Below are positions 40,902-58,448 of a DNA stretch of 64,000 nt, in pieces. A program made the position numbers and the translations under genes. Each line of letters begins with the position of its first letter. The first letter of the stretch is position 1. Location: NCBI RefSeq assembly GCF_013044135.1, contig NZ_JABEPP010000001.1, forward strand, positions 620,001-684,000, given 5' to 3'. Origin of the DNA: Enterovirga aerilata. Its GTDB lineage: Bacteria; Pseudomonadota; Alphaproteobacteria; Rhizobiales; Beijerinckiaceae. The notes under the pieces were generated by a model that saw nothing but the letters and a program-made list of their open reading frames with translations, searched no databases and had not been told where the DNA came from.

Positions 40902-40976
40902 GCGGGCGTAGTTCAGTGGTAGAACGTCAGCTTCCCAAGCTGAATGTCGTCGGTTCGATCCCGATCGCCCGCTCCA
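40902..40976 (+). tRNA. tRNA-Gly (anticodon CCC)
   Basis: A complete cloverleaf: acceptor GCGGGCG/CGCCCGC, D-stem GTTC/GAAC, anticodon stem TCAGC/GCTGA with loop TTCCCAA, and T-arm around GGTTCGATCC. The CCA end (40974-40976) is encoded. Its 3' part is the left attachment repeat of the integrated element, and the gene stays intact after integration. Confidence 0.95.
40929..40976. repeat. Left attachment repeat (attL) in tRNA-Gly
   Basis: This 48-bp stretch, from the anticodon stem to the CCA end, recurs at 58401-58448 with one mismatch (C at 40940, T at 58412). Flanking sequence diverges at once on both sides. Confidence 0.9.
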
Positions 40977-42284: not shown

Positions 42285-42540
42285 CGAGGTTCTCCATTCC
42301 GTCCGCTTGGACGACCTCGATGCTAGAAAGGGCATAGCGCCGGAGCCAATAGGCCTCGACGGCGGGCCAGAACCGGCCGCCCATGATCGGATCCACCTTG
42401 GGCAGGCCGTCGCGCTCGAGCACGATCGACTTCGCGGCCCACTCCTTGGGAGTCTGGCTCAGCCGCCGGGCGACCTCTGCCTCGCAGGGAAATAGCCCCG
42501 TCATCTTCACAGCCCGGTCGGAGGCGGCGGAGCGGGGCAT
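42274..42540 (-). CDS. Small helix-turn-helix-like phage protein (excisionase position)
   Basis: An 88-residue protein with a helical stretch EAEVARRLSQTPKEWAAK that reads like an AlpA/excisionase-type winged helix. It lies directly upstream of the integrase and overlaps its start, the usual place for a directionality factor. ATG 42540 is chosen; the longer frame upstream overlaps the next gene. Confidence 0.6.
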   Translation of the reverse strand: MPRSAASDRAVKMTGLFPCEAEVARRLSQTPKEWAAKSIVLERDGLPKVDPIMGGRFWPAVEAYWLRRYALSSIEVVQADGMENLDAL

Positions 42541-42544: not shown

Positions 42545-42757
42545 TTAGGAGCGGCTAGTCCGCTCGGGACGGGATTTCCGCCCAGCGATCTTGAGGCCCT
42601 CTCGCACAAGCGCCCGAATAGCGTCTGAGCGGCAGGACTGCCCGGCAGGAATCGCCCAAGCGTCGATCGCGTCCAGATCCGACTTATCGAACACAACGAG
42701 TGTTCGATGGCGAGCAGGCGCGCGGGTGCGCCGCTCAGCTCCATAAGCTGATCGCAT
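42545..42757 (-). CDS. Small ribbon-helix-helix-like protein
   Basis: A 70-residue protein with the pattern RTLVVFDKSDLDAIDAWA ... SCRSDAIRALVREGL, which fits a short beta strand followed by two helices, as in ribbon-helix-helix DNA-binding proteins. It ends 4 bp before the excisionase-like gene. The start is uncertain because no clear SD precedes ATG 42757. Confidence 0.55.
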   Translation of the reverse strand: MRSAYGAERRTRAPARHRTLVVFDKSDLDAIDAWAIPAGQSCRSDAIRALVREGLKIAGRKSRPERTSRS

Positions 42758-42796
42758 GGGGAACGACCTTCGATTTTCGGGGGTAGAAACAACGAC

Positions 42797-42823
42797 GCCC
42801 GGCAGCCATTTCTGGCTCCGGGC
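42797..42823 (-). terminator. Hairpin, possible terminator
   Basis: GCCCGG and CCGGGC flank AGCCA/TGGCT around loop TTTC, with one unpaired C. On the minus strand GTCGTTGTTTCT follows, a weak T-rich run. It lies in the 245-bp gap between the 43003-43317 gene and the 42757 start, where I see no gene. Confidence 0.45.
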
Positions 42824-43002
42824 GCGGCTCGATGTGCTGGGCGCGAGAATTAGCCCGTAAGTTCGCAGACCGCAAAGTCCAAAGTTGCCGCTGGAGTGTC
42901 CTTCAACGGCATTCGGTGGGAGGGTAAGCGACTGCAAGAACGTGCGTTTTTGGCTGCGGTAGTGCCATTTCGCCGCACGGCGGAGATCAGGGGCATTGGC
43001 GC

Positions 43003-43317
43003 TCATTTCTGATGTGCCTGGACCTTGGATCGCGCACGCCTCACCATTCCCCTGAGACGGTCCATGGTCCCGTCGCGACTGAACCCTTTCTCCTGAAGAG
43101 CGCTCACCATGGTGCCGGGCACCAAGCCGCACGTCTTAGCGTCGGGGCCGGCGGCTAGTAGGTCGACGAGCGCCGTCAGACAGGCGCGGGCCATCTCATC
43201 CCGGTCTGGGATGTTCGCTGCTTCGAGCTTGTCGCGGTAGTTCTGCGAGTATCGCTGCTGCTTGCGAAGGCGAGCGCGGTAGCGCTTGGCGTCTTCAGCG
43301 TCGTGGAAGTCGGTCAT
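43003..43317 (-). CDS. Hypothetical phage protein
   Basis: A 104-residue, helical, charged protein I do not recognise. The N-terminus MTDFHDAEDAKRYRARLRKQQ is strongly charged. ATG 43317 lies 9 bp after AGGAGG, so the start is well supported. It reads toward the integrase. Confidence 0.65.
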   Translation of the reverse strand: MTDFHDAEDAKRYRARLRKQQRYSQNYRDKLEAANIPDRDEMARACLTALVDLLAAGPDAKTCGLVPGTMVSALQEKGFSRDGTMDRLRGMVRRARSKVQAHQK

Positions 43318-43548: not shown

Positions 43549-43556
43549 CTATCCGA

Positions 43557-44378
43557 TCAATCGGTATCCTGCTTCGGTGTCAGGAGCTCGGCCGGCGGCC
43601 GGCCGAAACCGCTGCGGAGTGGGGTGTCGCCATGCCAGTAGCTCCACTTTCGCATCGGACCTGCGCCGGGTCGGATCACGCGTTCGGCCTGTTCCCGGAG
43701 CCGTGGCGGCAACACCGGAATCAGGTTCTTCAGCGTCTCGCCCTCATGATAGATCCTGAGATCGCGCAACGCGTCGCTCTGCTTACTGAACGCCACATCG
43801 CCAACGGACATCCACGCGATCAACTCGATCGCCCGGAAAGCCAGTCGAGATGGAGACGGCGGGGTCTTCCCGATCATGGTCGACCAGCGAGAGAGACGGA
43901 GGTGATGCTCGCTCTCAATGCGACGAGCTGAGGCGGTTCCAGACCGTCGCATCTCGACAGCCTGCGCCTCCTCACGCTCCTTCAGCCTCGCCATCGCCTT
44001 ATCGAAGGCATGTTGGCGCTCGTCCTCCCGAAGGAATGGATGGTTGAGATAGCGCTCGCGGAACTCGGACTCTCCGGGCCGGATGATGATGTGAACCATG
44101 CCGGTCGGAAGCTCGAACTGCTGCAGCGCGGGGATCCAGGAGTTCCTTCCCGAAAGCCTACCATCCGAGTGGACCGTCGACGGCCCCGGCTGCGCCCACC
44201 AGGGCATCGCGGCGATACACTCCGCAAGGATACGCTGCGCCCGCTTTAGCTCGAGCACCTGATCGAGCCATTCCGCGAACAGCTCGTCGACGCGGCGCGC
44301 GCTCTCATCACTGAGCGTGACGAGATCTGCCGCGCTGATCGGTGTCGCTTCTCCCGTAAAGGCCTCGTGTCGAGACAT
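43557..44378 (-). CDS. Hypothetical phage protein
   Basis: A 273-residue protein I do not recognise. The middle (about 120-190) has an ALERKE-rich helical stretch and no membrane segment is visible. ATG 44378 follows GGAGG at 5 bp; the frame upstream to 44564 has no such signal. It is divergent from the XRE regulator, in the position of an early or lysogeny gene. Confidence 0.65.
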   Translation of the reverse strand: MSRHEAFTGEATPISAADLVTLSDESARRVDELFAEWLDQVLELKRAQRILAECIAAMPWWAQPGPSTVHSDGRLSGRNSWIPALQQFELPTGMVHIIIRPGESEFRERYLNHPFLREDERQHAFDKAMARLKEREEAQAVEMRRSGTASARRIESEHHLRLSRWSTMIGKTPPSPSRLAFRAIELIAWMSVGDVAFSKQSDALRDLRIYHEGETLKNLIPVLPPRLREQAERVIRPGAGPMRKWSYWHGDTPLRSGFGRPPAELLTPKQDTD

Positions 44379-44594
44379 GCCGTCCTCCAAATTGCTGCCC
44401 CGATTGGGGCGAGGAGGAACGTCGGTGGCAATCTCGGCCGGATCGGTGCTCCGGCGAACATCACAAGACGCCGTTCGGGGCTGCTTTGAGCGGTTCGGGC
44501 GGGCCGGCGATTCGTTGGATGCAGGCAAGCCGAGGGCGGCTGCCGGAACGGTGTCGTTCGGCATTGATCAAGTTGCTCCGTCAACGGATCGTTG

Positions 44595-44605
44595 ATAGTT
44601 TCTAT
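44595..44605. promoter_or_regulatory. Operator-like palindrome O1 for the XRE regulator
   Basis: ATAGTTTCTAT (ATAG-TTT-CTAT) in an AT-rich stretch of the divergent region. A second related palindrome lies 38 bp further on, about 3.6 helical turns centre to centre. Confidence 0.45.
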
Positions 44606-44631
44606 ATCAAATCGCCGACGTTCGGCTGTCA

Positions 44632-44644
44632 ATAGAAATTCTAT
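44632..44644. promoter_or_regulatory. Operator-like palindrome O2 for the XRE regulator
   Basis: ATAGAA-A-TTCTAT, a near-perfect palindrome ending 5 bp before the XRE start. A repressor bound here would block its own transcription. The gene has no clear SD and may be leaderless. Confidence 0.5.
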
Positions 44645-44648
44645 CGAA

Positions 44649-44891
44649 ATGACGATCAGCGTCCGCCAGGTGAAAGCCGCTCGCGCCCTTCTCGGCTGGT
44701 CGCAAGCCGACCTCGCAAAAGCGTCGGCAGTTTCCTATCCGACGATCGCGCGTCTTGAATCAGACGACGGCGCTGGCCCGATCGGCGGGCGACAGGACAC
44801 GGTCGACAAGATCACGAAGGCGTTGCAGGACGCCGGCGTGGAATTCACGAACGGTGGACAACCAGGGGTCAGGCTCAGGGGGGTCGGCTAG
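44649..44891 (+). CDS. XRE-family helix-turn-helix regulator
   Basis: An 80-residue protein that is almost all HTH: ARALLGWSQADLAKASAVS and YPTIARLE are helices 1-3. Such small Cro/C1-type repressors hold prophages silent or act as antitoxins. It is divergent from the 43557 gene and has two operator-like palindromes upstream. The longer frame from 44592 is disfavoured because it lacks an SD and crosses O2. Confidence 0.85.
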   Translation: MTISVRQVKAARALLGWSQADLAKASAVSYPTIARLESDDGAGPIGGRQDTVDKITKALQDAGVEFTNGGQPGVRLRGVG

Positions 44892-45341: not shown

Positions 45342-45371
45342 CCCGAGCTACACACCTATGCGAGGGACAGG

Positions 45372-45971: not shown

Positions 45972-46165
45972 CGCCACTCCACCCTCCATCGCTGCTGCCG
46001 GTAGCTCAGGGATGGCATCCTGCTTAGATCAGTCAAGGGCGCGGCAGCCGAGAGCGCCGTTACATCCGCGGTCGCTCTCGGCTCAGCCCGCCGCGTTGCG
46101 GAGCGATCAACCATGTTCAAAGGCCGAATGGCGGCTAGCGATCCGCTGAGGCATACTCCCAGGAA

Positions 46166-46921
46166 ATGAGCCGCGAGATCACATTTCGCATCGACAGCTG
46201 GACGCCAGAGACGATCCCGATGGAGCGGCTCGGCGAGTACCTGGTCGAGCTTGGCCGCCTGTACGGCGAGAGCGCCAGCGTCCATTTCAAGAGACTGAAG
46301 AAGGGCAGCACGGTGATCGTCTCGGCTGTGGCTGAGCCTGCCGTTCCGAAGGTCGAAAGGCGCCTTGCTCAGGCACGGCAGATCCAAGCGCCGGCGGATG
46401 TCGTTCGAATCTATCGGCGAATCGACCAGATGCTTGCCGAGGATAATGCCGTTGGCGTGGTACGCTTCGGGCGAGGGAACGTCGTGCCGTTTCCAGGCCG
46501 CGAGCGAGAGATGCCGGTCGACTATGGCGTGGTCCGAGAGGAGGGCTTCATCGAAGGCGAGTTGGTCCGGCTCGGCGGGATCGACAAGTCGGTGCACCTG
46601 CAGCTGCAGGACGGCGACACGCTCTATACGAATGTTGTCACCAATCGCGAGACAGCACGTGAACTCGGGAAGCTGATTTTTGGCCCGATCATCCGGCTCT
46701 GGGGCACGGGCGCGTGGAGGAGATCGGCTGAGGGTGGCTGGGCGCTGGACAGCTTTAAGGTTGGTCGATTCGAGGTTTTGAGCGAGCAGGACCTAACGGA
46801 GGTGATTGCGGACCTGCAGGCAGTGCCCGGGAACTCGTGGCACCTCGAGCAGGACCCTATTGACGCCTTGCTAAGGATGCGAGCTGGCGAGCCGCCGGCC
46901 GCTCGGAAGCGTTCGCAGTGA
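46166..46921 (+). CDS. Unknown protein cotranslated with a PIN nuclease
   Basis: A 251-residue soluble protein I do not recognise. It starts MSREITFRIDSWTPETIPM and looks alpha/beta overall. Its stop overlaps the GTG start of the PIN gene (GTGA), so the two are made together. In toxin-antitoxin pairs the first gene is usually the antitoxin, but at 251 residues it is larger than VapB-type antitoxins. Confidence 0.75.
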   Translation: MSREITFRIDSWTPETIPMERLGEYLVELGRLYGESASVHFKRLKKGSTVIVSAVAEPAVPKVERRLAQARQIQAPADVVRIYRRIDQMLAEDNAVGVVRFGRGNVVPFPGREREMPVDYGVVREEGFIEGELVRLGGIDKSVHLQLQDGDTLYTNVVTNRETARELGKLIFGPIIRLWGTGAWRRSAEGGWALDSFKVGRFEVLSEQDLTEVIADLQAVPGNSWHLEQDPIDALLRMRAGEPPAARKRSQ

Positions 46922-47496
46922 TAGGCGCCTTCGACGCGTCCATGCTGATCCTGCTGCTCAATGAGAGGGCAGCAGCGCCGACGGACCATCAGACGGGCGA
47001 ACCGGTGAGCCTGGTGCAGGAAAGAATTAAGTTCATGGTCCAGCAGACCGTGAAGGCGCGAGGCCGCCTCATTGTGCCGACACCTGCACTTGGAGAGGTG
47101 CTGGTGAAGGTCGAGCCCGAGAGCGCAGCGGAGTATCTTTCCATTATGGAGCGCGCCCGCGGGTTCAAGATCTCACCGTTCGGGATCAAGGCCGCGATCG
47201 AGTTCGCCGAGATGCAGCGTCAGCTGTTAGGCAGCCGGCGGCGGATCAAGCGTGGCGACCTTGAGACGCGTGCCAGGGCCAAGTTCGACCAGCAAATCGT
47301 CGCGATCGCGAAAGCCGAAGGGGCATCGGTGATCTATTCGGACGACAGCGGGCTCAAGACCTACGCGAAGCACTTCGGCCTGGAGACACTCGGCATCCGC
47401 GATCTGCCGACACCACCGCCCAGCGATCTTCAACAGGAGCTGCCACTTGAGCCCCCCGAGCCGGAGATCCCGGCTGAAGTTGAGACGGCTCGCTAA
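46918..47496 (+). CDS. PIN-domain protein (putative RNase)
   Basis: A 192-residue PIN nuclease of VapC type. Acidic metal-binding residues fit: D6 in FDASML, E60 in ALGEVL, D124 in FDQQIVAIAK and D142-D143 in IYSDDSGLKTYAK. The last 30 residues form a Pro/Glu-rich tail. The start is GTG, overlapping the preceding stop. PIN toxins cleave tRNA or rRNA; the target here is unknown. It is convergent with the tail gene at 47502. Confidence 0.85.
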   Translation: MIGAFDASMLILLLNERAAAPTDHQTGEPVSLVQERIKFMVQQTVKARGRLIVPTPALGEVLVKVEPESAAEYLSIMERARGFKISPFGIKAAIEFAEMQRQLLGSRRRIKRGDLETRARAKFDQQIVAIAKAEGASVIYSDDSGLKTYAKHFGLETLGIRDLPTPPPSDLQQELPLEPPEPEIPAEVETAR

Positions 47497-47501
47497 CGTG
47501 T

Positions 47502-48119
47502 TCACCCCGCGATCCTCTCGCCGACTCGGTCCGGCCAGCGCTCGAGGATGCGGCTCTCGATGCGGTCGCGGTACACGGTCGTGAGCTGGGCGAACCCGCC
47601 GACCTTTGCGGGCTCTGCCACGTGCTGTCGCCGGAGGATGGCCAAGCCGGCCTCGATCGCGTTCATGGCCCCAAGCCGGTCGACAGAGACCGCCGGCGTG
47701 ATGACGCACTCCTGGAGCTCCGCTAGCTGCCCAGCCGGGCAGACGCCGGGGATCTCGTGCGTGCTGAACATGAGCGTGACGAACCGCTGGCCCTGCTCTG
47801 ACCAGCCGGCGACCGTGTGGTCCGACCGGTGCACCTTTCCGGCGAACCGCTCCGCGAGCGCTTCCAGACGATCACCGACGGTGGGAACGAGCGTCGGGAG
47901 GGCCGCCACTATCTCCTCGACGCTGCTCAGCGTGTTGAGTTCGAAGAAGACGCTCGCTGTAAGCTCAACCTGCCCCCGGCCGACATAGACCGCCCTGGCC
48001 TGCGGGATTGGAAAGGCTTTCCCCATCCGGCCGACCGCGGCGCCTTCGGGGGTCGCCATCAGCCCGTCCGTGAATACGTGAACGGCATCGGTCGTCCGAA
48101 TGACGTTGACCGCGGTCAC
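47502..48119 (-). CDS. Hypothetical phage tail-module protein
   Basis: A 205-residue protein at the end of the tail transcript. The segment DAVHVFTDGLMATPEG resembles N-terminal regions of Ntn-hydrolase-like folds, but I cannot name the family. GTG 48119 follows AAGGAG at 7 bp. It overlaps the small hydrophobic frame upstream. Confidence 0.65.
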   Translation of the reverse strand: MTAVNVIRTTDAVHVFTDGLMATPEGAAVGRMGKAFPIPQARAVYVGRGQVELTASVFFELNTLSSVEEIVAALPTLVPTVGDRLEALAERFAGKVHRSDHTVAGWSEQGQRFVTLMFSTHEIPGVCPAGQLAELQECVITPAVSVDRLGAMNAIEAGLAILRRQHVAEPAKVGGFAQLTTVYRDRIESRILERWPDRVGERIAG

Positions 48120-48270
48120 AGGGCAGCTCCTTCAGATTCAGGCCGGTCGGGATCGCTGGGGTTAGGAGTCCGCTGACCGTGAGCCCGGGGATGATCGTGG
48201 TCGCGCCAAGGCTTCCGAGGCCAGCCGCACCGAGACCGGCGCCAACGAGTGGTCCGACAAGAAAGGGCAT
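47965..48270 (-). CDS. Small hydrophobic protein, overlapping the next gene
   Basis: A 101-residue frame whose first 50 residues (MPFLVGPLVGAGLGAAGLG...) are Gly- and Leu-rich and hydrophobic. The last 50 share 155 bp with the next gene in another frame and look random. The ATG overlaps the tape measure stop (TGATG), which suggests coupled translation. The true product may be shorter. Confidence 0.4.
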   Translation of the reverse strand: MPFLVGPLVGAGLGAAGLGSLGATTIIPGLTVSGLLTPAIPTGLNLKELPCDRGQRHSDDRCRSRIHGRADGDPRRRRGRPDGESLSNPAGQGGLCRPGAG

Positions 48271-51200
48271 CAGCCGAACCTCCTGTCCCACACGCGACCC
48301 ATGTTCCCGAAATTCCTCTGGATGTGCCGGACCGTCTCCTCGTTACCCTGGCGGATCGCAGCGAGGATCTGCTCGGGGGTGTAGCCCTGGGCGGGCTGCA
48401 CGTTGATCGGTGCCTGGTTGATGGTGATCGGCGCCCCGCCGCCTCCGCCGGTGTTCACCGGCATGGGGACATTCATCGAGACCGGGATCGAGCGTCCGTC
48501 CGGGAGGGGGACGACGGCTTCGTTCATCTGGCCTTCGCCGATGATGTTGACGAAGGGCTGCCCGGCTTGCGCGATCCCGCCCTTCGCCATGTAGCGGAGA
48601 GGCATCGGGCCATCCGGCGTCAGGACGTTCCCGTTCGCGCTCCAAGACGCACCGGCGGCGTCGATGAACGGCGCACTGCCTCCGCCGCCTCCGAAGAGGC
48701 TTCCGAACAGGTTGCCAAGCCCGAACCCGCCTCCGCCCCCGCTGCCGATCGCGACTTGGCTCAGCTTCGATCCGAAAGCGTCGAGACCGGAGCCGAACGA
48801 GCCGAGGCCGCTGGTCGCCTCGGTGGCACTCGAGGAGAGCGTGGAGAGGCTTTGCGTCGCCTGTTCGGTCGAGCGGGTGATGCCTTCCCAGTTCCCGATC
48901 CCGGAATTGCGGGCCCCGTACCAAGGCCCCCAGCCGCCGCTCCTCGCCTGGTCGAGTGCGAAATCGGTCTGCTGGCGCCACGTCGAGGGATCGCGCACGT
49001 TGATCCCGCGGGACAGTGCCGTGTTGCCGAGCCCGCCTCCGGTGAAGAGCTGCCAGGGTCCGAACGAGCGGCCCTGGTCGCCAATGGTCCCGGTCGGATT
49101 CGATTGCGTCAGGCCTTCCGAGCGCGCGACCCGGAGCGCGATGTCGGGATCGATGCCCCGCATAGCCGCGGCTTGGCGGATATAGCCCGCGACCTCCGAA
49201 TAGCTGGCCGAAGCTCCGCCGCCGAACTTGGAGGAGTCCAGGATCTGGGAAGCGCCCGGGATCAGGTTCTGCCCGGAGCCCCCAATGCCCGGCAGACCGC
49301 CGGTCCCGATGCCTCCGTTCACCACCACCGACGCGGCGTTGACCGTCATGGACGCCGTCGTGGACTGCGCCAGCGGGTTCGGCAGCTTGATCCCGCTCGC
49401 GTCGCCGAAGATGCGCGAGATCCAATCGCCGGTCGCGCCGCCGCCTGGCTTCCCGAACTGGCCTAGCAGCCCCTCGGTGAGCGGGCGGGAGATCAGCCGA
49501 TCGAACATCTGATCGGTCTGCCGGCCAAGCGAGTTCACGATCCCTTCGAGCGGGCTCTTGCCCTGCCGAACGTCAGAGAACGCCCCCGTGAGCAGCCCGC
49601 TCGTGCTGGAGCGCAGCTCGTCCATGCCGCCGACGACATTCTGTTGAACGCGGCGAAGCTCTTCCTGAGCCGCTGCTGCCTTGCCCGCGGCGGCCGCGAG
49701 CTGATCGAGCCGCGCCGAGTAGTCGGACAGATCGGTGATGCCTCGCCGCGTGAGGTCGTTCACAAGCTCCTGACGAGCGGCCATGGCAGCCGCGGCCTCG
49801 GTGCTCAGCGTGAAGCCGTCGCGCTGAACCCGGAGGGCGGAGACCTGCTCGTTGATCCGGGTCGCGGCGTCCCGGAGCGGCACGTCGATCTGCTCGCGCC
49901 GGAACGTCGCCTGCTCCAGACCCTTCGCGACGTTGAGGCCTCCGATGATGCGCTGATCGCCGCCCGCCGCCTTCGCGAGGTCCCGGTACTTCTGCTCGAT
50001 CTGGGCAAGGCCGCGCTCGTAGGGGAGAAGCCCGGCAGCGTCGAAGGCGTCCTGTGCCGCCTTCCGGAGCTCATAGGCCGCGGTCCCGCCTGCCTTGAGC
50101 TTCTCCTCGATCTGCGCCAGTCCGGCCCGGGCGCGCTCGATATCCGGAAGGTTGGTGGCGTCCTTCAGTGCCCGGCCGAATGCCGCCGCATCTCCGGCAA
50201 GCTCGTCCAACTCCCGACCGCCCGGGAACATGCGATCGAGCACGCCGAGCGCCCGGGTCGACGCATCCCGATTCAGCTGATCGATCTCCCGCTGCATCGC
50301 CAGCGCGGATTGCCGCCGGCGCTGCTCCTGAACGTCGGAGAGATCCTGCGTTGTCTGCTCGACCTGCCGCGGCGTCATCGTCCGATAGGAGGGCACCTGC
50401 GCCCGGATCTGCGGGTCATCCAGCCCCATGGCCCGGAGCGCCTCGACGAGGTCCGGCTCCGTGGACGTGTCATTGCTCCGGAGCCGCTGCTGCAGCTGCG
50501 CCGCGCGCTCCTGGAGCGTGGGCTGCGCCAGCGCGCGACCGATTGCGTCCGCGGCGTTCGAGGCGCTGTTCTTCACCGCGTCCCAGGCCTGCGCCCAGGC
50601 GGAGGTCTGCTCCGTCACCTTGAGCAGCGACGGCACGAGCGCGGCGTAGAGCGTGCGCTGCGCCCCGAGCGTGTCGCCCATGGCCTGTTGCCGGCGGATG
50701 GCGTCGAGCGTGGTCCCGCTCAGGAACCCCAGCCGAGCGTTGAGCTGCTCGGCCCCCTTGGTCGGGTCCGCGAAGGCCCGGGCGAGATCGGTGTTCGCCT
50801 GCTCGAGATCCTGGCCCGTGGTGACCGCGTAGTCTCGCGCGACCCGAACGAGGTCACCGAACATCGCGCCCCCGACTTTCCCTGTCCGGGCGTACTCCGC
50901 CTGCATCGAACGGGCGGCGGAGATCGAGACGCTGCCGGCCGCAGCCGTCGCGAGCGCGGTCTGGTTGATGCTGTCCCGGGTGGCGCCGGTCGCCCGCCCT
51001 ATTCCGGCGACAGAGCGCTCCACATCTCGTTGCTGCGTCTCGTAGCGATCCCAGGCTGCGGCGGAAGCGATCGCCGCGGCCCCGACTGCGGCCACGGATC
51101 CCACCAGCGCAGTGGTCGGGTTGATCAGCCCGAGCGCGCTCTGCCCGGCCTGCTTGAGCCCTGCGGCGATTCCGCCCTGGCCCGCGAGAGCCTCGTAGAT

Positions 51201-51689
51201 TTGCGGCCCCTGCTGGCTGAGCACCGTGAACGGGTTCTGACCGCCTTGAAGCGACGCGACGACATCGAACAGCTGCGATCGGAGGTTTCCGACTTGGTGT
51301 GCCGCGAGCCCCGAGCTCCGGGCGAAATTCTCGTTCGCCTGAGCGGCTACCCCGTATTTCTGCGCCGCCAGGCCGAGCAGCCGGTCCCGCTCCCGCATGT
51401 CGACAAGGCCTTGACCGGCCGCGCGGGCAAGGCGGGTCTCCACCTCAGCGTACCGCGCCTGCGAGCGGTGAACCTCGTCCACAGTCCGCCTGAGCCGCTC
51501 CAGGTCGTTGACGGCGCTCGTCTGCCGACGCGCGGACGTTTCGCTAACCTGCCCCATCGTGCCGGCGCTGCGCGCGACGGCCTCTTGCGCCTGATCGAGG
51601 CGGTTAAGGTCGCTCGCAAGCTTGTCGACCCCCTGCGAGCTGCCTCGAATGACGAGCTCGCGGATGACGGTCTGCTGCTGGGCGGACAA
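48270..51689 (-). CDS. Phage tail tape measure protein with lytic-transglycosylase-like domain
   Basis: A 1139-residue protein, the longest in the window. The first 800 residues are helical with Ala/Gln-rich coiled-coil segments and two short hydrophobic stretches, as in lambda gpH-type tape measures that set tail length. Residues about 825-930 (AAAMRGIDPDIALRVARSEG, QGRSFGPWQLF) form a transglycosylase-like domain with the catalytic Glu in RSEG, for crossing peptidoglycan. The Gly-rich C-terminus follows. Its reading frame is intact. Confidence 0.9.
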   Translation of the reverse strand: MSAQQQTVIRELVIRGSSQGVDKLASDLNRLDQAQEAVARSAGTMGQVSETSARRQTSAVNDLERLRRTVDEVHRSQARYAEVETRLARAAGQGLVDMRERDRLLGLAAQKYGVAAQANENFARSSGLAAHQVGNLRSQLFDVVASLQGGQNPFTVLSQQGPQIYEALAGQGGIAAGLKQAGQSALGLINPTTALVGSVAAVGAAAIASAAAWDRYETQQRDVERSVAGIGRATGATRDSINQTALATAAAGSVSISAARSMQAEYARTGKVGGAMFGDLVRVARDYAVTTGQDLEQANTDLARAFADPTKGAEQLNARLGFLSGTTLDAIRRQQAMGDTLGAQRTLYAALVPSLLKVTEQTSAWAQAWDAVKNSASNAADAIGRALAQPTLQERAAQLQQRLRSNDTSTEPDLVEALRAMGLDDPQIRAQVPSYRTMTPRQVEQTTQDLSDVQEQRRRQSALAMQREIDQLNRDASTRALGVLDRMFPGGRELDELAGDAAAFGRALKDATNLPDIERARAGLAQIEEKLKAGGTAAYELRKAAQDAFDAAGLLPYERGLAQIEQKYRDLAKAAGGDQRIIGGLNVAKGLEQATFRREQIDVPLRDAATRINEQVSALRVQRDGFTLSTEAAAAMAARQELVNDLTRRGITDLSDYSARLDQLAAAAGKAAAAQEELRRVQQNVVGGMDELRSSTSGLLTGAFSDVRQGKSPLEGIVNSLGRQTDQMFDRLISRPLTEGLLGQFGKPGGGATGDWISRIFGDASGIKLPNPLAQSTTASMTVNAASVVVNGGIGTGGLPGIGGSGQNLIPGASQILDSSKFGGGASASYSEVAGYIRQAAAMRGIDPDIALRVARSEGLTQSNPTGTIGDQGRSFGPWQLFTGGGLGNTALSRGINVRDPSTWRQQTDFALDQARSGGWGPWYGARNSGIGNWEGITRSTEQATQSLSTLSSSATEATSGLGSFGSGLDAFGSKLSQVAIGSGGGGGFGLGNLFGSLFGGGGGSAPFIDAAGASWSANGNVLTPDGPMPLRYMAKGGIAQAGQPFVNIIGEGQMNEAVVPLPDGRSIPVSMNVPMPVNTGGGGGAPITINQAPINVQPAQGYTPEQILAAIRQGNEETVRHIQRNFGNMGRVWDRRFG

Positions 51690-51698
51690 GATGCGCTC

Positions 51699-51992
51699 CT
51701 AGTTCGGCAGGCCGGAGAGGGTGGCGTCGAGCAGCGGCTGGGCGCCGCCGAGTCGCTCTTTCAACGTCCAGAGGGCGCCCAACCGGAACGCATCCAGGTC
51801 CGCGTCGCTGGCGCCGCGGGCCCGAAGCCCAGGTTCGGCCCGGATCACCTCGACCAGCGCATCCTCAAGGATCTGTGCGACCTGCAGCGGCGTCGGCGAT
51901 GCCGGCAGAGCGGCAACGGCCGCGATCATACCCTGCGCGACCTGCTCGGCACGGGCCTGCCCCTGCGCGATCATCTCGGCGAGCGATGGCAT
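51699..51992 (-). CDS. Small tail-assembly-like phage protein
   Basis: A 97-residue helical protein starting MPSLAEMIAQGQARAEQ, placed 9 bp before the tape measure gene where tail assembly chaperones usually lie. No family is recognised with certainty and no frameshift site is evident. Confidence 0.55.
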   Translation of the reverse strand: MPSLAEMIAQGQARAEQVAQGMIAAVAALPASPTPLQVAQILEDALVEVIRAEPGLRARGASDADLDAFRLGALWTLKERLGGAQPLLDATLSGLPN

Positions 51993-52120
51993 TTAGAGCT
52001 CCGTCGTGGAGAAGGGTTGCCGGCCGCGCCCGAACCCCATCGGGCCGCCGGCTTCTCGGCTGTTTCAGGCCACCTGCCGAGTGGGCCAGGCGCGGGATGG
52101 AGGCGCCCGCGCCGGTCTCG

Positions 52121-53362
52121 TCAGCTCGCGGAAACCAGCAGGAGCTTGATCGCCTCAGAGTTGGCTAGCCCGCCCCCGACGCGCTTGTACGCGTAGAACA
52201 TCACGTAGGGCTTCGCGCTGAACGGGTCCCGCAGCCACTTGATGCCCGCCCGGTCCACGATGATGTAGCCGAGCTTGAAGTTGCCGAAGGCGATCGGCAC
52301 TGCTCCCGCGACAACGTCGGGCATGTCCTCGCTGAAGGTGACAGGGTAGTTCAGCAGCATCGGCGGCGCCCCGGCGATCATGCTGTCGCGCCAGATATAC
52401 GCTCCGCTCGAGTCCTTCAGCTTGTCGATCCTCGCGGCCGTGTTCGTGTTCATGAGCCAGCCGGCCCCTTGCCTATAGGGAGCACGCAGCGACCAGGTGA
52501 GATCCTTGAGGCCGTCGGCCGTGATCTCCGTCGCATGTCCGCTGGGGACCGTCTGAAGCGAGGACCAGGGACGCGAGCCGTCCTTTTGCGCGCTGGTCCC
52601 GTAACTCAGGAAGCCGCGGGGCTTCTTGACGCCGTCGCCCGTCACGAAGGACGCGCCCTCCGTTCGCCCGAACCGGTCGCTGATCTTGCCCTCGAGCCAG
52701 CCGCCAATGTCGAAGCCGGAATCGTCGAGCAGCCGCTGAGTGACCTTCGGGTTCGCATAGATCTCCTCCAGCGGGATCCGGAGAATGCCGACCTGCGGGG
52801 TGCTGGTCTCGGGACGGGACTCGGTCTCGCCGACCCACGTGGCGCCGACATCGTCCAGGTCCAGCGGCTCCTCGAAAGCGTCCCCCTGCGTGATGGTCTC
52901 TACGCGTGCCAGCTGACGCATGGGCGTGGTGTCGAAGAGCCTCTTCGTCATCCGGCTGGAAAGGACCGGGTGCACGAGGAAGCCGCCATCCGGATCCGAG
53001 CCAACGCTCATCGCCTTCAGCTCGGCGTCGTCGCCGCGGCGGGCGAAGGTTGCGAGGGCCTTGTGCTCGGCCGAGGCGTCGCCGGCCTTCATGTCAACGG
53101 ACCCCGGGCGGTTCAGGCGCTTCTCGAAGCCGTCGAGACGGTCGCCGTGGGCCTGCAGCTGCGTGTCGAACTCGCCCAGCCGGGCGCCGGTCCGTTCGAG
53201 CAGCCCTTTCACCTCACCGTGATGCGCGGAGAACTGGCGCGAGAGCTCGGCCAGATCCGCCCCGCTCTCACGCGGAGCGTCGAGTACGGGCCGGGGCCCG
53301 ACGGATGCGGAGAAGATGCGTGCGGCCGAAGCGCCGCCGAGAACCATGTCACGAGTGTTCAT
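52121..53362 (-). CDS. HK97-family major capsid protein
   Basis: A 413-residue capsid precursor. Residues 1-115 are a helical scaffolding (delta) domain that the protease removes, and the mature fold begins near MSVGSDPDGGFLVHP. Further markers are GEGAS-like ATWVGETESRPET and the C-terminal YAYKRVGGGLANSEAIKLL. Its start overlaps the protease stop (ATGA). A connector and tail tube gene would be expected downstream but only a 128-bp gap precedes the 51992 gene. Confidence 0.92.
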   Translation of the reverse strand: MNTRDMVLGGASAARIFSASVGPRPVLDAPRESGADLAELSRQFSAHHGEVKGLLERTGARLGEFDTQLQAHGDRLDGFEKRLNRPGSVDMKAGDASAEHKALATFARRGDDAELKAMSVGSDPDGGFLVHPVLSSRMTKRLFDTTPMRQLARVETITQGDAFEEPLDLDDVGATWVGETESRPETSTPQVGILRIPLEEIYANPKVTQRLLDDSGFDIGGWLEGKISDRFGRTEGASFVTGDGVKKPRGFLSYGTSAQKDGSRPWSSLQTVPSGHATEITADGLKDLTWSLRAPYRQGAGWLMNTNTAARIDKLKDSSGAYIWRDSMIAGAPPMLLNYPVTFSEDMPDVVAGAVPIAFGNFKLGYIIVDRAGIKWLRDPFSAKPYVMFYAYKRVGGGLANSEAIKLLLVSAS

Positions 53363-54114
53363 GCGGTGAACCCTTTCAGGGAGCTCAGAGAGCGAAGATC
53401 GGCGAGAGCCGCGCCGACGGCGTCAGCCGCCGCAGTGAGGGCGGGATCCGGGGTGTTAGGTTCGGAACGGGAAAGGCCGGACCATCCGGCCGCGGTGAGC
53501 CGCTTCGCCTCCGCCCGGGAAAAGCCGGCCCGGTGCAGGAAGCGCTCAAGGTCCGCCGGTGAGGCGATCGACTTCACATTGTCGACGAGCGCCTGGTCGT
53601 TCATCCCGAAGAGCACGACGGAGACCTCGAAGAGGTCGAGGCGCTTGATGGTGCGGTAAGGTTCGGAGGGCTTGGTGCCGAGGGTGAATTCCTTCACCCG
53701 GTAGCCGATCGACAGACCGTCGAGCTCCCCGGCCTTCATTGCTTCATGTACGGCGCGGCCACGGTCGGTATCGAGCCCGAGAAGCCGGCCCTCGACGTAG
53801 AGGCCCTTTGTGTCCTCGCTCATGCCCGTCCATTGGCCGAGCGGAATCGCGTCCATGGCCGATCCGCCGAACAGGCCGGGCCCATGCTGTAGGAGCATCT
53901 TCGGCAGCTTGCCGCGAGCCTTCCACTCGCGAAGGGTCTGCGCGAACGCGCCCTTGGCGATGACGTCGCCGCCGAAGTCCTCGTGGTTGAACACGGAACC
54001 GTAGCCGCTGAACGTGCCCTCGGCCGCGCCGGAGGCGAACTTGACCTCCAGGCCGAGCGACATCCGGCCCATCGGCTCGGTCGCGGAACGCTTCGTTTCG
54101 TCAGGAAATGACAA
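53359..54114 (-). CDS. HK97-family prohead protease
   Basis: A 251-residue serine protease that matures the capsid. The typical blocks FSGYGSVFNHEDFGGDVI, KMLLQHGPG (catalytic His) and AGELDGLSIGY (catalytic Ser) are present. It is coupled to the capsid gene. No portal gene lies upstream; the next 201 bp hold no gene. Confidence 0.9.
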   Translation of the reverse strand: MSFPDETKRSATEPMGRMSLGLEVKFASGAAEGTFSGYGSVFNHEDFGGDVIAKGAFAQTLREWKARGKLPKMLLQHGPGLFGGSAMDAIPLGQWTGMSEDTKGLYVEGRLLGLDTDRGRAVHEAMKAGELDGLSIGYRVKEFTLGTKPSEPYRTIKRLDLFEVSVVLFGMNDQALVDNVKSIASPADLERFLHRAGFSRAEAKRLTAAGWSGLSRSEPNTPDPALTAAADAVGAALADLRSLSSLKGFTA

Positions 54115-54315
54115 GGGCCACCTGCATGCGCGAAAGCGATCGGGCGAAGTGCCCGTTCAAGCCCTGCGAGAGCCGCCATCACGGCGGACTGCTAGGTGAC
54201 CTTCTGAACCGTCCAGCCCGCATCACGCGGGTGGCAGTCCGTTCGGATCACCTATGAATGTAGACGGATCGATAGCCGTCGTAAATTAATGTGATCTGCG
54301 GCGGGCCGTCGCGGC

Positions 54316-54582
54316 CTAGTGCTTCAACACGGACGCGATCGCACCGGGATCTGCAGCGTCGTCCTCGACGAGCTTCGCCAACTCGCGCAGCATCTCTGCC
54401 ACTCCCTCGCGGGATACGCCTTCGGTGAAGAGGATATCCGCGGCCTGGAACATCAGCGCGGCGCCGAGTTCAATTGGGGGCTGACCCATCTTCCGCCACT
54501 TCCCGACGATCATCGCCGCGTAGTCAGTCGCGAGGTCGCCTGGGGCTTCGTCATCCTGCTCAAAGCCTACGTCTTGGCTCAT
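54316..54582 (-). CDS. Small hypothetical phage protein
   Basis: An 88-residue acidic, helical protein (MSQDVGFEQDDEAPGDL start). ATG 54582 follows AGAGGAG at 7 bp, which fixes the start. Function unknown. It lies 201 bp before the protease and reads the same way. Confidence 0.65.
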   Translation of the reverse strand: MSQDVGFEQDDEAPGDLATDYAAMIVGKWRKMGQPPIELGAALMFQAADILFTEGVSREGVAEMLRELAKLVEDDAADPGAIASVLKH

Positions 54583-54839
54583 CGTAATGCTCCTCTGAAA
54601 ATGCGATTTTTGTCCAATTACTTCCCGCCCTTCTGGGGCGAGATTTCCGTTGCGCAGCAAGGCTTTGGCGCGCGTCCACTTTCCAGTCGCTCGCTTGCGA
54701 AAACTGGTTTTCTGCGCAATAATTCCAGTTCTCAGGCACCTGAAATTTCGCCTCGCGCCGGAAAATAAATGCGCGTGGGACCCCGTGCGGTGGGGCGTCC
54801 TACCAGCGCGGGAACTTCTGCTCCCCCTACCCCCCTCGG

Positions 54840-55181
54840 TCACTGCCGCCTCCCGGGCGCGTCGTGGCTCCCGTCGACGAGGAAGGCTCGCTCGGCATCG
54901 AGACCAGCGCTGAAGCCGACGCGAGCTTGGGCAAGCCAGATGTCCCGCTCGTCCTCGCTGAGACCGAGAACCTGACGGCGATGATCAGCGGCCGTGCGCA
55001 TTGCGCGCTCCGCACGCTCGTTGATGGCGGCGAGCTGCGCCTGGGCGTCCTTCGCAACGATCGGGATTCGCTGGATGGCGGTGACGGTGAAGCTGGCGAT
55101 GTCTCGGCCGAAGCGGTCGGGATCAGCCGTTGGATCAGGGGTAGGGGCTTGCACTGGCGCGCGCCGGCGTGGATCAGGCAT
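54840..55181 (-). CDS. Hypothetical phage protein
   Basis: A 113-residue protein with a Pro-rich N-terminus (MPDPRRRAPVQAPTPDP) and a helical remainder (DAQAQLAAINERAERAMRTA). ATG 55181 follows GGAGG at 7 bp. Function unknown. It is divergent from the gene at 55210. Confidence 0.6.
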   Translation of the reverse strand: MPDPRRRAPVQAPTPDPTADPDRFGRDIASFTVTAIQRIPIVAKDAQAQLAAINERAERAMRTAADHRRQVLGLSEDERDIWLAQARVGFSAGLDAERAFLVDGSHDAPGRRQ

Positions 55182-55209
55182 AGTGATCCTCCGAGGTAAG
55201 GCGAGAAGA

Positions 55210-55422
55210 ATGAACGAGCGACGTGGTGTGCCGTCTCTGGTGAACTTCGAGGGGACGACCGTCGGAGAGTTGATCGACTTCCTTCGCGAGTATCCGCCCG
55301 ACATGGGAGTCGTGTTCCAGGACGACGCGATCCTGGTCACGAAAGCAAAGGCCGGCTACATCATCCTTCGACTTGATGACCGAGCTGACTACGCCGACGC
55401 ACCACCGCCCTACCAGGGATAG
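55210..55422 (+). CDS. Small hypothetical protein
   Basis: A 70-residue acidic protein with a helical stretch TTVGELIDFLREYPPDMG and a beta-like C-terminus. Function unknown. A weak GA-rich stretch precedes ATG 55210. Confidence 0.55.
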   Translation: MNERRGVPSLVNFEGTTVGELIDFLREYPPDMGVVFQDDAILVTKAKAGYIILRLDDRADYADAPPPYQG

Positions 55423-55446
55423 TCGGGATCGAGAGCCAATCGAACT

Positions 55447-55947
55447 ATGTCGTTGAGGCGCCACACAGACCATGGGAAGTGGTCCGAGGCGAAGGTTCCG
55501 CACCGAGGCTGGAGTTGCATTTACGACGACGATCTTGGGGAGCCATCGCAGCTTTGCGAGATGTGCGAATCGGCAGAGGTGCGCTTCGTTCATTACATGC
55601 AGCACCCGGAGTACCCCGACGTCTTGGGCGTCGGCTGCGTCTGTGCCGAGCGCATGGAAGAGGACTACACGCGCCCGAGGGAGCGCGAGCGACGCCTCAA
55701 GAATGTCGCCAGGCGGCGGGCGGCTTGGCGTGGACGTGAGTGGCACCGTTCCGCCAAGGGCAATCCGTATGTGAATGTGAACGGCTTCAACCTGACCCTC
55801 TATGAGGCCGCGCGGGGCTGGCGTGTGTCGGTGGCGAACCGTGCGACCGGAGCCTCTCAGAAGGGCAAGAAGCTGTTCCCTGATCTGGCCGCCGCTCAGG
55901 CGGCGGCATTCGAGGCACTGATCTGGGCCGAACAGAACCTCCCGTGA
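55447..55947 (+). CDS. Hypothetical phage protein with cysteine pairs
   Basis: A 166-residue protein. CEMC and CVCAE, about 25 residues apart, could hold a zinc ion, followed by a basic region RERERRLKNVARRRAAWRGRE. Proteins of this kind are seen on other mobile elements in this group, but their role is unknown. Confidence 0.65.
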   Translation: MSLRRHTDHGKWSEAKVPHRGWSCIYDDDLGEPSQLCEMCESAEVRFVHYMQHPEYPDVLGVGCVCAERMEEDYTRPRERERRLKNVARRRAAWRGREWHRSAKGNPYVNVNGFNLTLYEAARGWRVSVANRATGASQKGKKLFPDLAAAQAAAFEALIWAEQNLP

Positions 55948-56144
55948 TCGACGATTGTTGCCGCGATCTCGACCGCGACCTCTTCCGGCACGCCCACGTC
56001 GAGCGCCCGGCTCAGCACGGCCAGTGCCGTCGGTCGGATCCCCGCGTCGCGAAGATCGGCCAGGATCGCGGCCGCATGCTCTGCCACGTTCAGCCGCGGC
56101 ACGTAGGCCGGTGGTGGTCGGATCGGTTCGGCGATCGTCGGCAT
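55896..56144 (-). CDS. Small hypothetical protein
   Basis: An 82-residue protein with an Ala-rich helical core (AAAILADLRDAGIRPTALAVL). ATG 56144 follows GAGG at 8 bp. Its end overlaps the end of the convergent gene at 55447-55947 by 52 bp. It shares an operator-like region with the HU-like gene. Confidence 0.5.
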   Translation of the reverse strand: MPTIAEPIRPPPAYVPRLNVAEHAAAILADLRDAGIRPTALAVLSRALDVGVPEEVAVEIAATIVDHGRFCSAQISASNAAA

Positions 56145-56163
56145 GGCTGGTCCTCGACAACTC

Positions 56164-56190
56164 ACATCCATCATATATCGTTATGGATGT
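56164..56190. promoter_or_regulatory. Inverted repeat before the HU-like gene
   Basis: ACATCCAT (56164-56171) and ATGGATGT (56183-56190) form a perfect 8-bp inverted repeat around an AT-rich 11-bp spacer, in the 70-bp divergent region between 56144 and 56215. It is a candidate operator. Confidence 0.4.
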
Positions 56191-56214
56191 TGCCGTTATC
56201 GAGAGGCTTCCGTT

Positions 56215-56559
56215 ATGAACCTGCCGGACTTGATCGAAGCCATGGCGAAGGCGAGCGGCCGGCCTGAGGCAGAATGCCGACGGCACGCCAATGCGTTCAT
56301 CCAGGCCGTCAGGCTCGGGTTGCGCACCGATGGAGAGGTCGCGATCCGCTCGTTCGGCGCCTTTGTGGTCGACACATCCCCGGCGCGGCCGTGCAGGAAT
56401 TTCCAGACCGGCGAGCCGATGCTGTCCGAGCCGAAGCGCAAGATCAGGTTCAAGCCCGCGCCTGACGTCGAAACGGGCCCGCCGCATCCGTTCGGAGCGC
56501 ATCGGAAGAGGAGAGCGGGCGCGGATCATGCCGCCTCGCTCTCGGGCTCGAGCACCTGA
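56215..56559 (+). CDS. HU/IHF-family DNA-binding protein
   Basis: A 114-residue histone-like protein. MNLPDLIEAMAKASG is the helical dimer half, VAIRSFGAFVV the beta core, and PCRNFQTGEPM and RKIRFKPAP the DNA-contact arm and conserved end. A 20-residue tail extends beyond the usual 90-95 residues. SD GAGAGG lies 8 bp before ATG 56215. Phage HU-like proteins aid packaging, replication or integration. Confidence 0.85.
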   Translation: MNLPDLIEAMAKASGRPEAECRRHANAFIQAVRLGLRTDGEVAIRSFGAFVVDTSPARPCRNFQTGEPMLSEPKRKIRFKPAPDVETGPPHPFGAHRKRRAGADHAASLSGSST

Positions 56560-57887
56560 TTACGAGATCGCTCGGCACCGCCTTCGATGAGCGAGAACAG
56601 CCGCAAGGTCGGGAACACCGGGCCTGGATCGGGCGGGCGCTTCCCGCCGCGGCGGTGATGAGGCGGGCGCATTGCGCGCTCGCGATCCCACTCGGCCGGC
56701 GGGGGCAGGTCAGCGTCGTCGGCGAGCAGCCATCGCTTCAGGTTGGCGATGATCTCAGGAGAGAGGTCGAATGCGTTCGGCAGGCCAAGCGCGCGCCGCT
56801 CAGCGGCATGCATCGCGTTGGCGAGCTGCGGCCTCGAGATCCCGATCGCGGTTGCGACATCCTCTTGCCGGAAGGCTCGTCTGCGCTTGGCAGCGATGAC
56901 GGCAACCCGGACAGCCTCGGGCATCTCGCCGGAATGCCAGCGATCCAGGACGGCCCGGAGCTCGTCACGAGCCTGCGGGGGAGCGAGGAACGACAGTTGC
57001 CTGGCGTCGCCTTCCTGAGCCGGGATGGCACTGCTTCGGCCGCAGTACCTAGAAGCTATGCTTCTTACTGTAGCCGTTGTGGTGCCAACCTGCCCAGAAA
57101 CCTCGTTCCCGGTCGTGGACGTTGTGGTGCCAAGGTCACCGGGAGCGGCTCTTTCGATTGTGGACGTTGTGGTGCCACGGGCCACAGCCTGGTTCCGAAA
57201 CCAAGTCCGTCGAGACACCCCCGCAGCCTTCCATGGCTCGGCTTTCGCGACCGTGTCGGCGTACGATCGGGCGCCTTCCGCTCTCCGCTTCTCGGCTTTG
57301 CGTATCCGCGCGTCTTCCCGCCTCGCAGCCTCACGCTCCTTCTTCGACCAGTCGATCGCACCGATCGTTCGGATCTCAAGGGCTGTCCTCTCGGCTCTCG
57401 TTAGACGAAGGCGATTCGCCAGAGCGTCGGCTTTGAGCGTCCGGCCCGGGTCCCTGGCGATCTCCCGCAGATCGTCGAGCGCGATCTCACCGAGAGCTTT
57501 CCGGCACCACTGGGATGCCCAACCGATCAGCCGCGCGAGCGGATCGCCCATGACAACCCGGTTCGGGCCTTCGTGCGGCGCCGGCTGAGCCAAGATGTGA
57601 GGTGCTAGAGCTCGGATGTAGATCTCGCCTTCGCCATCCGTGTCCACACCGCCGTCGCCGTGGCGATACCGGATGAGGCGTTCGCCCTCGGCGACTCTGA
57701 GGGTGTCGATCCCGGGGCGCCTCGAGATGCGTGCTGGGGTGTGCTCGTAGCCCAGCCGCAGCTTCGCAGAGAGCTTCCCGGTCTTGTCCCGGAGGGGCTT
57801 CGCCCCGCGCGGGACGACGCGCGCGACAGGCGCGTTCTGATCCTCGATCACCGCTGCGGGGAGGTGCGTCGGGCGGGGCGGTTTCAT
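56526..57887 (-). CDS. HTH-containing replication-like phage protein with internal repeats
   Basis: A 453-residue basic protein. A helix-turn-helix segment RQEDVATAIGISRPQLANAM lies near 360-385, and another helical region AERTALEIRTIGAIDW at about 165. In the middle, three 15-residue repeats start GTTTST/GTTTAT. The Toprim-like gene ends 4 bp inside its start, so they form a pair. Position and shape suggest a replication initiator or helper, which is inference. Its end overlaps the HU-like gene by 34 bp. Confidence 0.65.
   Translation of the reverse strand: MKPPRPTHLPAAVIEDQNAPVARVVPRGAKPLRDKTGKLSAKLRLGYEHTPARISRRPGIDTLRVAEGERLIRYRHGDGGVDTDGEGEIYIRALAPHILAQPAPHEGPNRVVMGDPLARLIGWASQWCRKALGEIALDDLREIARDPGRTLKADALANRLRLTRAERTALEIRTIGAIDWSKKEREAARREDARIRKAEKRRAEGARSYADTVAKAEPWKAAGVSRRTWFRNQAVARGTTTSTIERAAPGDLGTTTSTTGNEVSGQVGTTTATVRSIASRYCGRSSAIPAQEGDARQLSFLAPPQARDELRAVLDRWHSGEMPEAVRVAVIAAKRRRAFRQEDVATAIGISRPQLANAMHAAERRALGLPNAFDLSPEIIANLKRWLLADDADLPPPAEWDRERAMRPPHHRRGGKRPPDPGPVFPTLRLFSLIEGGAERSRNQVLEPESEAA
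57076..57210. repeat. Three tandem 45-bp repeats (iteron-like)
   Basis: GTTGTGGTGCCA begins at 57076, 57121 and 57166, exactly 45 bp apart. The first two copies share more bases up to GTGGAC at the end. They encode the 15-residue repeats of the HTH protein. In-gene direct repeats in an initiator gene are typical of lambda-like origins. Confidence 0.65.
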
Positions 57888-58336
57888 CGGCCCGCCTCCG
57901 ACTCGGAGCGGCAGAACAGCGCCTCACGGGTCCGCAGCCACTCGCGCTCGCTTTCCTCGGCGATCTTGAGAACCTGGAGTTCGTACCCTGAGAGGTGCCG
58001 ATTGATGGCGCCCTGAACGAGGTGACGAAGCTGGTCGGGCGGGAGGGCGTCTAGCTCACACGCGAAGGCGTGTGGCCATTTCAGGTCGGCCACCGTCTTC
58101 CGCTTCGGGACCCGAGTGGGCAACCTATGCAATCGGATCTGATCAAGCGTGACGCCCACCGTCTCGAAAACGACGGTGATCCCCTTCTCGGCGGCGAAGC
58201 GTGTCAGCTTCTCCTGCAGGCTCCGACCAGCATCCCTGCCCGCCCTGTCGAAATCGCCCAGGTAGTACACGTAGTAGGGCCGCTGATCGTCGCCGCGCGC
58301 CGTCCTACCGGCCGCGGGGCTTTGCTTTTGTGCCAT
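57884..58336 (-). CDS. Compact Toprim-like protein
   Basis: A 150-residue protein whose YYLGDFDRAGRD (D28, D30) matches the DxD end of Toprim domains of the topoisomerase VI/Spo11 kind. The RLHRLPTR and LDALPPDQLRHLVQGAI blocks resemble the C-terminal half of longer phage proteins; the N-terminal half is missing here. A real SD (AGGAGA) lies 7 bp before ATG 58336, inside a hairpin, so the short form seems genuine and not merely cut by the att site 65 bp upstream. Confidence 0.65.
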   Translation of the reverse strand: MAQKQSPAAGRTARGDDQRPYYVYYLGDFDRAGRDAGRSLQEKLTRFAAEKGITVVFETVGVTLDQIRLHRLPTRVPKRKTVADLKWPHAFACELDALPPDQLRHLVQGAINRHLSGYELQVLKIAEESEREWLRTREALFCRSESEAGR

Positions 58337-58400: not shown

Positions 58401-58448
58401 AGCTTCCCAAGTTGAATGTCGTCGGTTCGATCCCGATCGCCCGCTCCA
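58401..58448. repeat. Right attachment repeat (attR)
   Basis: A 48-bp copy of the 3' part of tRNA-Gly(CCC), identical to 40929-40976 except for T at 58412. It lacks the acceptor and D-arm, so it is not a tRNA. The next 298 bp, to 58746, hold no supported gene: only a short CTTCC/GGAAG hairpin and a CG-rich palindrome. Confidence 0.9.

Follow-up and report, generated by a model that had tools for sequence, protein, structure and literature searches.

We analysed a stretch of 64,000 nucleotides from Enterovirga aerilata (contig NZ_JABEPP010000001.1, positions 620,001 to 684,000 of the forward strand), which is called the window throughout. Positions 40,977–58,448 of the window hold an element of 17,472 bp (17.5 kb) with both attachment (att) ends present, in an Enterovirga genome of 4.65 Mb (G000). 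The integrase gene of the element adjoins a tRNA-Gly(ccc) gene, and the 3' end of this tRNA gene (40929–40976) is repeated at 58401–58448 over 48 bp with one mismatch (36 bp exact). The repeat gives the element two ends and hence its length. An earlier note, made from the sequence alone, had described phage structural genes at this place; the far att site and the constancy of gene 47502 (genes are named here by their first coordinate) go beyond it.

Read from right to left, the structural genes encode the prohead protease, the capsid protein, the small protein of gene 51699, the tape measure protein and the product of 47502. Upstream of them lie the small genes 54316, 54840 and 55896, the HU gene, and genes 56526 and 57884 (Table 1). 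The earlier note held that capsid, protease and tape measure had been kept, and the Pfam matches bear this out, with its coordinates and frames being right. It also called 51699–51992 a small tail gene; the gene does start 128 bp after the end of the capsid gene, but the tail assignment is unproven, as no PHROG or Pfam match was obtained, and a sequence match in phages or plasmids was likewise sought and not found.

For the missing functions, 107 frames of at least 60 aa overlap the element, and 93 of these were scanned against PHROGs at E 0.05; the remaining 14 are the integrase, tape measure, capsid, protease, HTH and HU frames, two frames straddling the ends and six of 60–73 aa. None of the nine PHROGs families matched by the 93 frames is a portal, small terminase, connector, tail tube or lysis family, though shorter or very divergent genes may escape such a scan, and no HNH gene of the type found in capsid-forming phage-inducible chromosomal islands (cf-PICIs) was recognised. 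The profile check proposed in the earlier note was therefore consistent with its claim that these functions are absent, and a hidden portal or terminase was rejected on the same frames. The sole terminase label in the element fell on 47502, which matches phrog_13702, 'terminase large subunit' (2.5e-4); a terminase was rejected on the predicted proteasome fold of the protein, and the profile is 218 positions long. phrog_13702 captures proteasome-fold proteins here, and its label may be wrong. The note had also pointed to close relatives in the form of full-length prophages as evidence that would speak against its reading; none turned up in the searches made.

Table 1. Features of the element and its integration site, with window coordinates, strand and supporting match
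Feature	Coordinates	Strand	Match or basis
tRNA-Gly(ccc), integration target; last 48 bases are one att copy	40902..40976	+	ARAGORN; repeat
Tyrosine integrase, 424 aa, open frame	41061..42335	-	phrog_1 integrase 1e-12; Pfam Phage_integrase under its cut-off
Frame with 3' part like small transcriptional repressors	42545..43132	-	phrog_18767 3e-8, phrog_4738 7e-4, residues 133-181
335-aa protein, matching none of the profile sets searched	43557..44564	-	
HTH regulator	44592..44891	+	HTH_3 7e-7
Partner gene overlapping the PIN gene	46166..46921	+	phrog_19868 4e-38
PIN-domain protein, possible cargo	46918..47496	+	PIN 5e-6
Proteasome/HslV-fold protein, predicted N-terminal-nucleophile protease (Thr2, Asp18, Lys34); family-defining gene	47502..48119	-	
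Tail tape measure protein, 1,139 aa	48270..51689	-	TMP_2 4e-49 (Pfam), phrog_24 6e-43
97-aa helical protein, where a tail assembly chaperone would sit	51699..51992	-	AlphaFold 2 (AF2), single sequence, pLDDT 79.5
HK97-type major capsid protein	52121..53362	-	Phage_capsid 2e-79 (Pfam)
S78 prohead protease	53359..54114	-	Peptidase_S78 4e-27 (Pfam)
Small gene, weak look-alike in E. rhinocerotis C1 element	54316..54606	-	BLASTP 25%, E 0.026, single comparison
Small gene common to E. rhinocerotis C1 element (53%)	54840..55187	-	
Small gene common to E. rhinocerotis C1 element (44%)	55896..56174	-	
HU-like DNA-binding protein, also in E. rhinocerotis C1 element	56143..56559	+	Bac_DNA_binding 8e-17
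453-aa protein	56526..57887	-	phrog_2339 HTH 0.049 only
150-aa protein like C-terminal part of a phage topoisomerase family	57884..58336	-	phrog_6247 3e-9
Second att copy, tRNA-Gly 3' end (48 bp, 1 mismatch)	58401..58448	+	repeat

The AF2 model of the 47502 protein, built from 16 aligned sequences, has a mean pLDDT of 91. Foldseek searches of the PDB with this model retrieved proteasome subunits (E 8e-9), and VIA-align superposed it on a proteasome chain with a Z score of 19.2 and a root-mean-square deviation of 2.2 over 170 residues, model residue 2 being paired with chain residue 1 at the start of the alignment. The profile match to HslV is weak (E 0.96); it is colinear starting at residue 1, and it pairs the conserved Asp and Lys each with a residue of the same kind in HslV. 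Within the family, position 2 is Thr or Ser, position 18 Asp and position 34 Lys in every row of two alignments that overlap in membership (10/10 in A2 and 16/16 in A7). Among five genes read later, three keep all three residues in place, one has the Lys displaced by +1, and one has both Asp and Lys displaced by +2. We predict from the model that 47502 encodes an N-terminal-nucleophile protease of the proteasome-beta/HslV fold. Once Met1 is removed, positions 2, 18 and 34 become 1, 17 and 33, the triad named in the available part of PMC8665760 for proteasome homologues of phages (PPH) and their relatives RPC and DPH in proteobacteria. The likeness of 47502 to these proteins lies in the fold and the Thr/Ser1-Asp17-Lys33 triad; satellites are unmentioned in that part of the paper. 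Foldseek also found some viral proteins of the same fold at 8–18% identity. A tblastn search of 50,697 phage records with three family members at E 0.01 gave no match, although single-sequence tblastn can miss distant relatives.

Scans with 47502 yielded 16 loci in GTDB genomes and six in IMG/VR, two of which duplicate DNA of others; the family-gene matches G285, G294 and G258:C28 were left out of the reading of gene contexts. The gene is sparse (10/298 genomes of the host family and 4/376 of the class, own included). Eighteen loci were searched for repeats between a tRNA gene and a far end, and nine had them; these nine, all tRNA-bounded, have a mean length of 17,579 bp (standard deviation 1,054; range 16,135–19,103). 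In addition to the window element, whose repeat has one mismatch while the other eight are exact, these are E. rhinocerotis C1 (L089; 16,527 bp, 19-bp repeat, tRNA-Asn), E. rhinocerotis C3 (18,481 bp, 18-bp repeat), Chelativorans (L090; 16,135 bp, 46-bp repeat), a Xanthobacteraceae metagenome-assembled genome (MAG; 17,935 bp, 45-bp repeat), IMG/VR L103 (19,103 bp, 46-bp repeat), G655 (G655a; 18,315 bp, 47-bp repeat), G008 (17,973 bp, 51-bp repeat) and G431 (16,267 bp, 20-bp repeat). The class-wide search (4/376 genomes) served as a test, and three of its four later regions were bounded, at 16.3–18.3 kb; the G008 gene was already known and present in alignment A2, its wider surroundings being what was new. 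In the fourth region, G655b, 1.3 kb separate 47502 from an integrase gene, and a tape-measure-like gene is present, with no repeat.

Local profiles were applied to 26 regions, the window included. TerL and portal are both found in four of the nine bounded elements (E. rhinocerotis C3, the Xanthobacteraceae MAG, G008 and G431), TerL alone in one, and neither in the other four (the window, E. rhinocerotis C1, Chelativorans and G655a). Six of the nine have a capsid gene and six a tape measure gene, one of the latter consisting of the C-terminal part only. An integrase was found in eight of the nine, with none detected in G655a, and in 19 of all 26 regions; since a control stretch of 34 kb of host chromosome also gave one integrase-type match, integrase presence alone is weak evidence. 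The tRNA-bounded elements of 16–19 kb share a proteasome-fold gene and differ in their head, packaging and tail modules: the kits seen are a terminase, a set of terminase, portal, protease and capsid, a tape measure with no capsid, and a capsid together with a tape measure. A packaging limit would be expected to give elements of one size and varied content, and random decay would not, though nine elements are few. The earlier note had suggested looking for the same gene set at tRNA sites in other genomes: same-size tRNA-bounded elements do exist, one of them in the same genus with nearly the same kit, but the kits overlap only partly.

Both 47502 and a tape measure gene are present in 11/26 regions (the short tape measure of E. 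rhinocerotis C1, which PHROGs alone recognised, is included), and in each of these the two genes lie side by side. The tape measure gene precedes 47502 in nine of these, with overlap or at most 2 bp between them in eight and 150 bp in the window. Where a terminase is present, 47502 follows TerL (L087, L095, L098, L103 and G008), precedes the portal gene (L099) or follows the capsid gene (L056), whereas the terminase of G431 is encoded on the opposite strand. The bounded 18.3-kb element of G655 (L129+L130) has the proteasome-fold gene twice, once after an S78-like protease gene and once after a short tape-measure-like gene.

The nearest element, E. rhinocerotis C1 (L089), carries an integrase, HU, homologues of 55896 and 54840, a capsid (40% identical overall to that of the window), 47502 and a tape measure reduced to a 520-aa C-terminal part; no prohead protease was found in it. 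From this element, Tardiphaga L088 and Afipia L083, 59 frames of at least 100 aa were scanned against PHROGs, recognised frames being left out. They gave no portal and no terminase other than phrog_13702 (two members), which also takes 47502; replication families were matched, as were tail fibre J (3.5e-6) and tail assembly (0.021) in one member each. A small terminase was seen in L083 and in L102, and a head maturation protease in L088. L086, L087, L098 and G008 have TerL, portal, S78 protease and capsid, L086 having a head-tail adaptor as well. Chelativorans L090 has two frames with a match to phrog_6454, of which one matches a tail-protein family as well, and one frame with a weak small terminase match (0.0022). 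Among the unassigned frames of six relatives' loci, 80 of 90 were scanned and 91 PHROGs families matched. The matches listed (25/91) include head-tail adaptor, terminase small subunit, primase, polymerase/primase, helicase, HNH, invertase, integrase, acetyltransferase and regulator families, and no tail tube, fibre or lysis family is among them. None of the 26 regions gave a match to the local profiles for tube, fibre and endolysin, which rest on few seeds, some of them taken from the own prophage that was the positive control.

L102 is a fragment, and genes absent there prove nothing; at 6832–9794 it has connector-like head-tail genes right after the integrase of the satellite-like element, which looks like the insertion of one element into or next to another. 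L075 (G264:C4) holds, at 6334–18206, a putative integrase frame, a 368-aa protein with a match to the tape measure's N-terminal part and a putative S49 protease frame, with a weak 54840 homologue and no capsid match. Small Methylobacterium/Methylorubrum plasmids (pAMS5c, L069, and p3META1, L070) carry ParA, a recombinase and a tape-measure gene, and no head genes are annotated in their incomplete table.

Two other loci of the same genome bear on the origin of the missing parts. Contig C8 (~119.8–146.9 kb; L060, L061) has a siphophage prophage with a full structural set, namely TerL, a fused protease-capsid, portal, head closure, neck, major tail protein, tape measure, tail, fibre and endolysin genes. 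Over 472 columns, the tape measure of this prophage shares 34% identity with that of the element. Contig C3 (~894–905.5 kb; L057) has a gene transfer agent (GTA)-like cluster with capsid, protease, portal- and terminase-like genes, apart from the element; the 19.5 kb read at this place contain neither a tRNA nor anything that matches the element integrase. On the capsid tree the element capsid lies outside the GTA clade, and its place is unsure because of long branches; its nearest rows by path are GTA-type capsids, to which it is at most 42% identical in the tree alignment. The capsid was rejected as a search handle: it matched in 186/298 family genomes, and in 18/19 loci examined (all except L009) the capsid was close to that of the own GTA. 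When viral contigs were scanned, the capsid and the small gene 54840 gave no match, and the tape measure gave one partial relative.

Among the remaining genes of the element, the PIN gene and its overlapping upstream partner (46166–47496) match phage families without known function, phrog_19868 and phrog_21691; the pair is possibly a toxin-antitoxin or defence cargo. PADLOC, run on 10 element proteins in search of defence cargo, gave no match, and an NCBIfam search of 10 element proteins gave no useful match. Homologues of the 453-aa protein (56526–57887) occur in 8/298 genomes of the host family, own included, and a part in replication is our guess for it.

The earlier note had left open whether clean deletions or a helper-dependent, satellite-like state explain this gene set. 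We consider it rather probable that the element is an integrated helper-dependent phage satellite and not a decayed prophage. From the sequence comparisons, the satellite is better supported, because the 93 frames yielded no portal, terminase or connector, the searches made brought up no full-length phage version and same-size tRNA-bounded elements carry partial kits. By analogy with known satellites, and by inference throughout, the following course can be pictured. The element would excise when a siphophage helper is active; its protease and capsid protein would assemble a small head for ~17 kb around the portal of the helper, which the helper terminase would fill. Helper connectors, tube and tip would then assemble around the element's tape measure, so that the particles would be chimeric in head and tail. 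The proteasome-fold protein, whose gene in most cases comes last or nearly last in the structural cluster, probably has a late satellite or helper protein as its substrate, its role being a guess.

These steps are modelled on two satellite types. Like cf-PICIs, the element has an integrase with att ends and its own capsid and prohead protease (Pfam/PHROGs), and would need helper tails; putative tmp (tape measure protein) genes are present in a sampling of cf-PICIs (PMC12987554, Extended Data Fig. 10 legend). It differs from them, by the description in the available part of PMC10690885, in that cf-PICIs encode their own portal, connectors, terminase subunits and HNH, whereas portal, connectors, TerL, TerS and HNH are not recognised in the element. 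Like the phage-inducible chromosomal island-like elements (PLEs) of Vibrio cholerae, it has its own tape measure; in the available part of PMC12987554, PLEs put their own tape measure and a hub protein into helper tails, and it was for PLEs that a satellite was first reported, in 2026, to replace the tape measure of its helper. The capsid protein in PLE11 virions is that of the helper (same source) whereas the element has its own, and PLEs parasitise ICP1 in Vibrio while the host here is Enterovirga. PLEs have a chaperone beside the tape measure; in the element this place is taken by the helical protein of 51699. A complete temperate phage differs in having the portal, terminase, tail tube and lysis genes that are not recognised here.

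A wider proposal, which we put forward tentatively and hold to be somewhat less likely than not, is that of an undescribed, mainly alphaproteobacterial satellite family with a proteasome-type protease as its mark and a packaging size of ~17.5 kb, in which each member has its own selection from a set of exchangeable head, packaging and tail-ruler genes. Particles of the window element would be chimeric in head and tail, and the protease would remodel or sabotage helper assembly. We recognised no paper on satellites marked by proteasome homologues or on capsid-bearing satellites of Rhizobiales, in a literature that covered few subscription papers and preprints and is weak evidence of novelty. 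Several observations weigh against the satellite reading. No tested precedent was found for a satellite with its own capsid and no portal. The C8 siphophage prophage is a candidate helper only. As a tail chaperone, 51699 was tried without a sequence match or a fold match at E below 1. On the capsid tree, the reduced members are not monophyletic. Half of the loci searched (L082, L083, L084, L088, L091, L092, L098, L099 and G655b) gave no end repeats; several loci of this kind are fragments or have short flanks, and the counts cover only elements with findable ends. An empty attachment site was not found in the genus, the G160 left flank being 78% identical and the right flank absent from its short contig. 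Four of the nine bounded members have terminase and portal, and this copy could have lost them. Finally, a broken remnant in E. rhinocerotis shows that decay occurs in the family.

These last two points underlie the reading of the element as the remnant of a cf-PICI-like element that lost terminase, portal and connectors by clean deletion and is no longer mobile, which we regard as unlikely and yet as the strongest competitor. The same-size E. rhinocerotis C3, Xanthobacteraceae MAG, G008 and G431 elements do have TerL and portal, the window protease and tape measure match the C3 element strongly (8e-29 and 4e-92), and the broken remnant of this satellite type lies at 700–1555 of a 13.7-kb E. 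rhinocerotis contig (L080/L094). However, loss should shorten an element, and this one has 17.5 kb against 16.3–18.5 kb in those with terminase and portal; its main frames and att ends are intact, and reduced kits recur in bounded L089, L090 and G655a. A satellite of the host's GTA, with portal, terminase and tail supplied by that agent, would fit a genome that has a GTA-like cluster and a capsid whose nearest rows are GTA-type. GTAs, however, package host DNA without preference for one element. Alphaproteobacterial GTAs share a related HK97 capsid with the element, but the own cluster lies elsewhere (contig C3), the element capsid falls outside the GTA clade, if with an unsure place, and its tape measure matches the C8 siphophage prophage and not the 19.5-kb GTA locus, which makes this origin very improbable. 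Marginally harder still to credit are phage structural genes domesticated by the host as an injection or shell device and sitting by chance in an integrative element: the frames are open and no lysis gene is recognised, but the device was not found in this form in the other eight genus genomes searched, and the sparse distribution of 47502 (10/298; 4/376) is as expected of a mobile element.

If the satellite reading is true, a family of fixed size with varied modules would provide natural experiments on which virion parts are exchangeable. The constant proteasome-like gene would mark such elements where curated families fail, and a function would be suggested for proteasome homologues in mobile elements.

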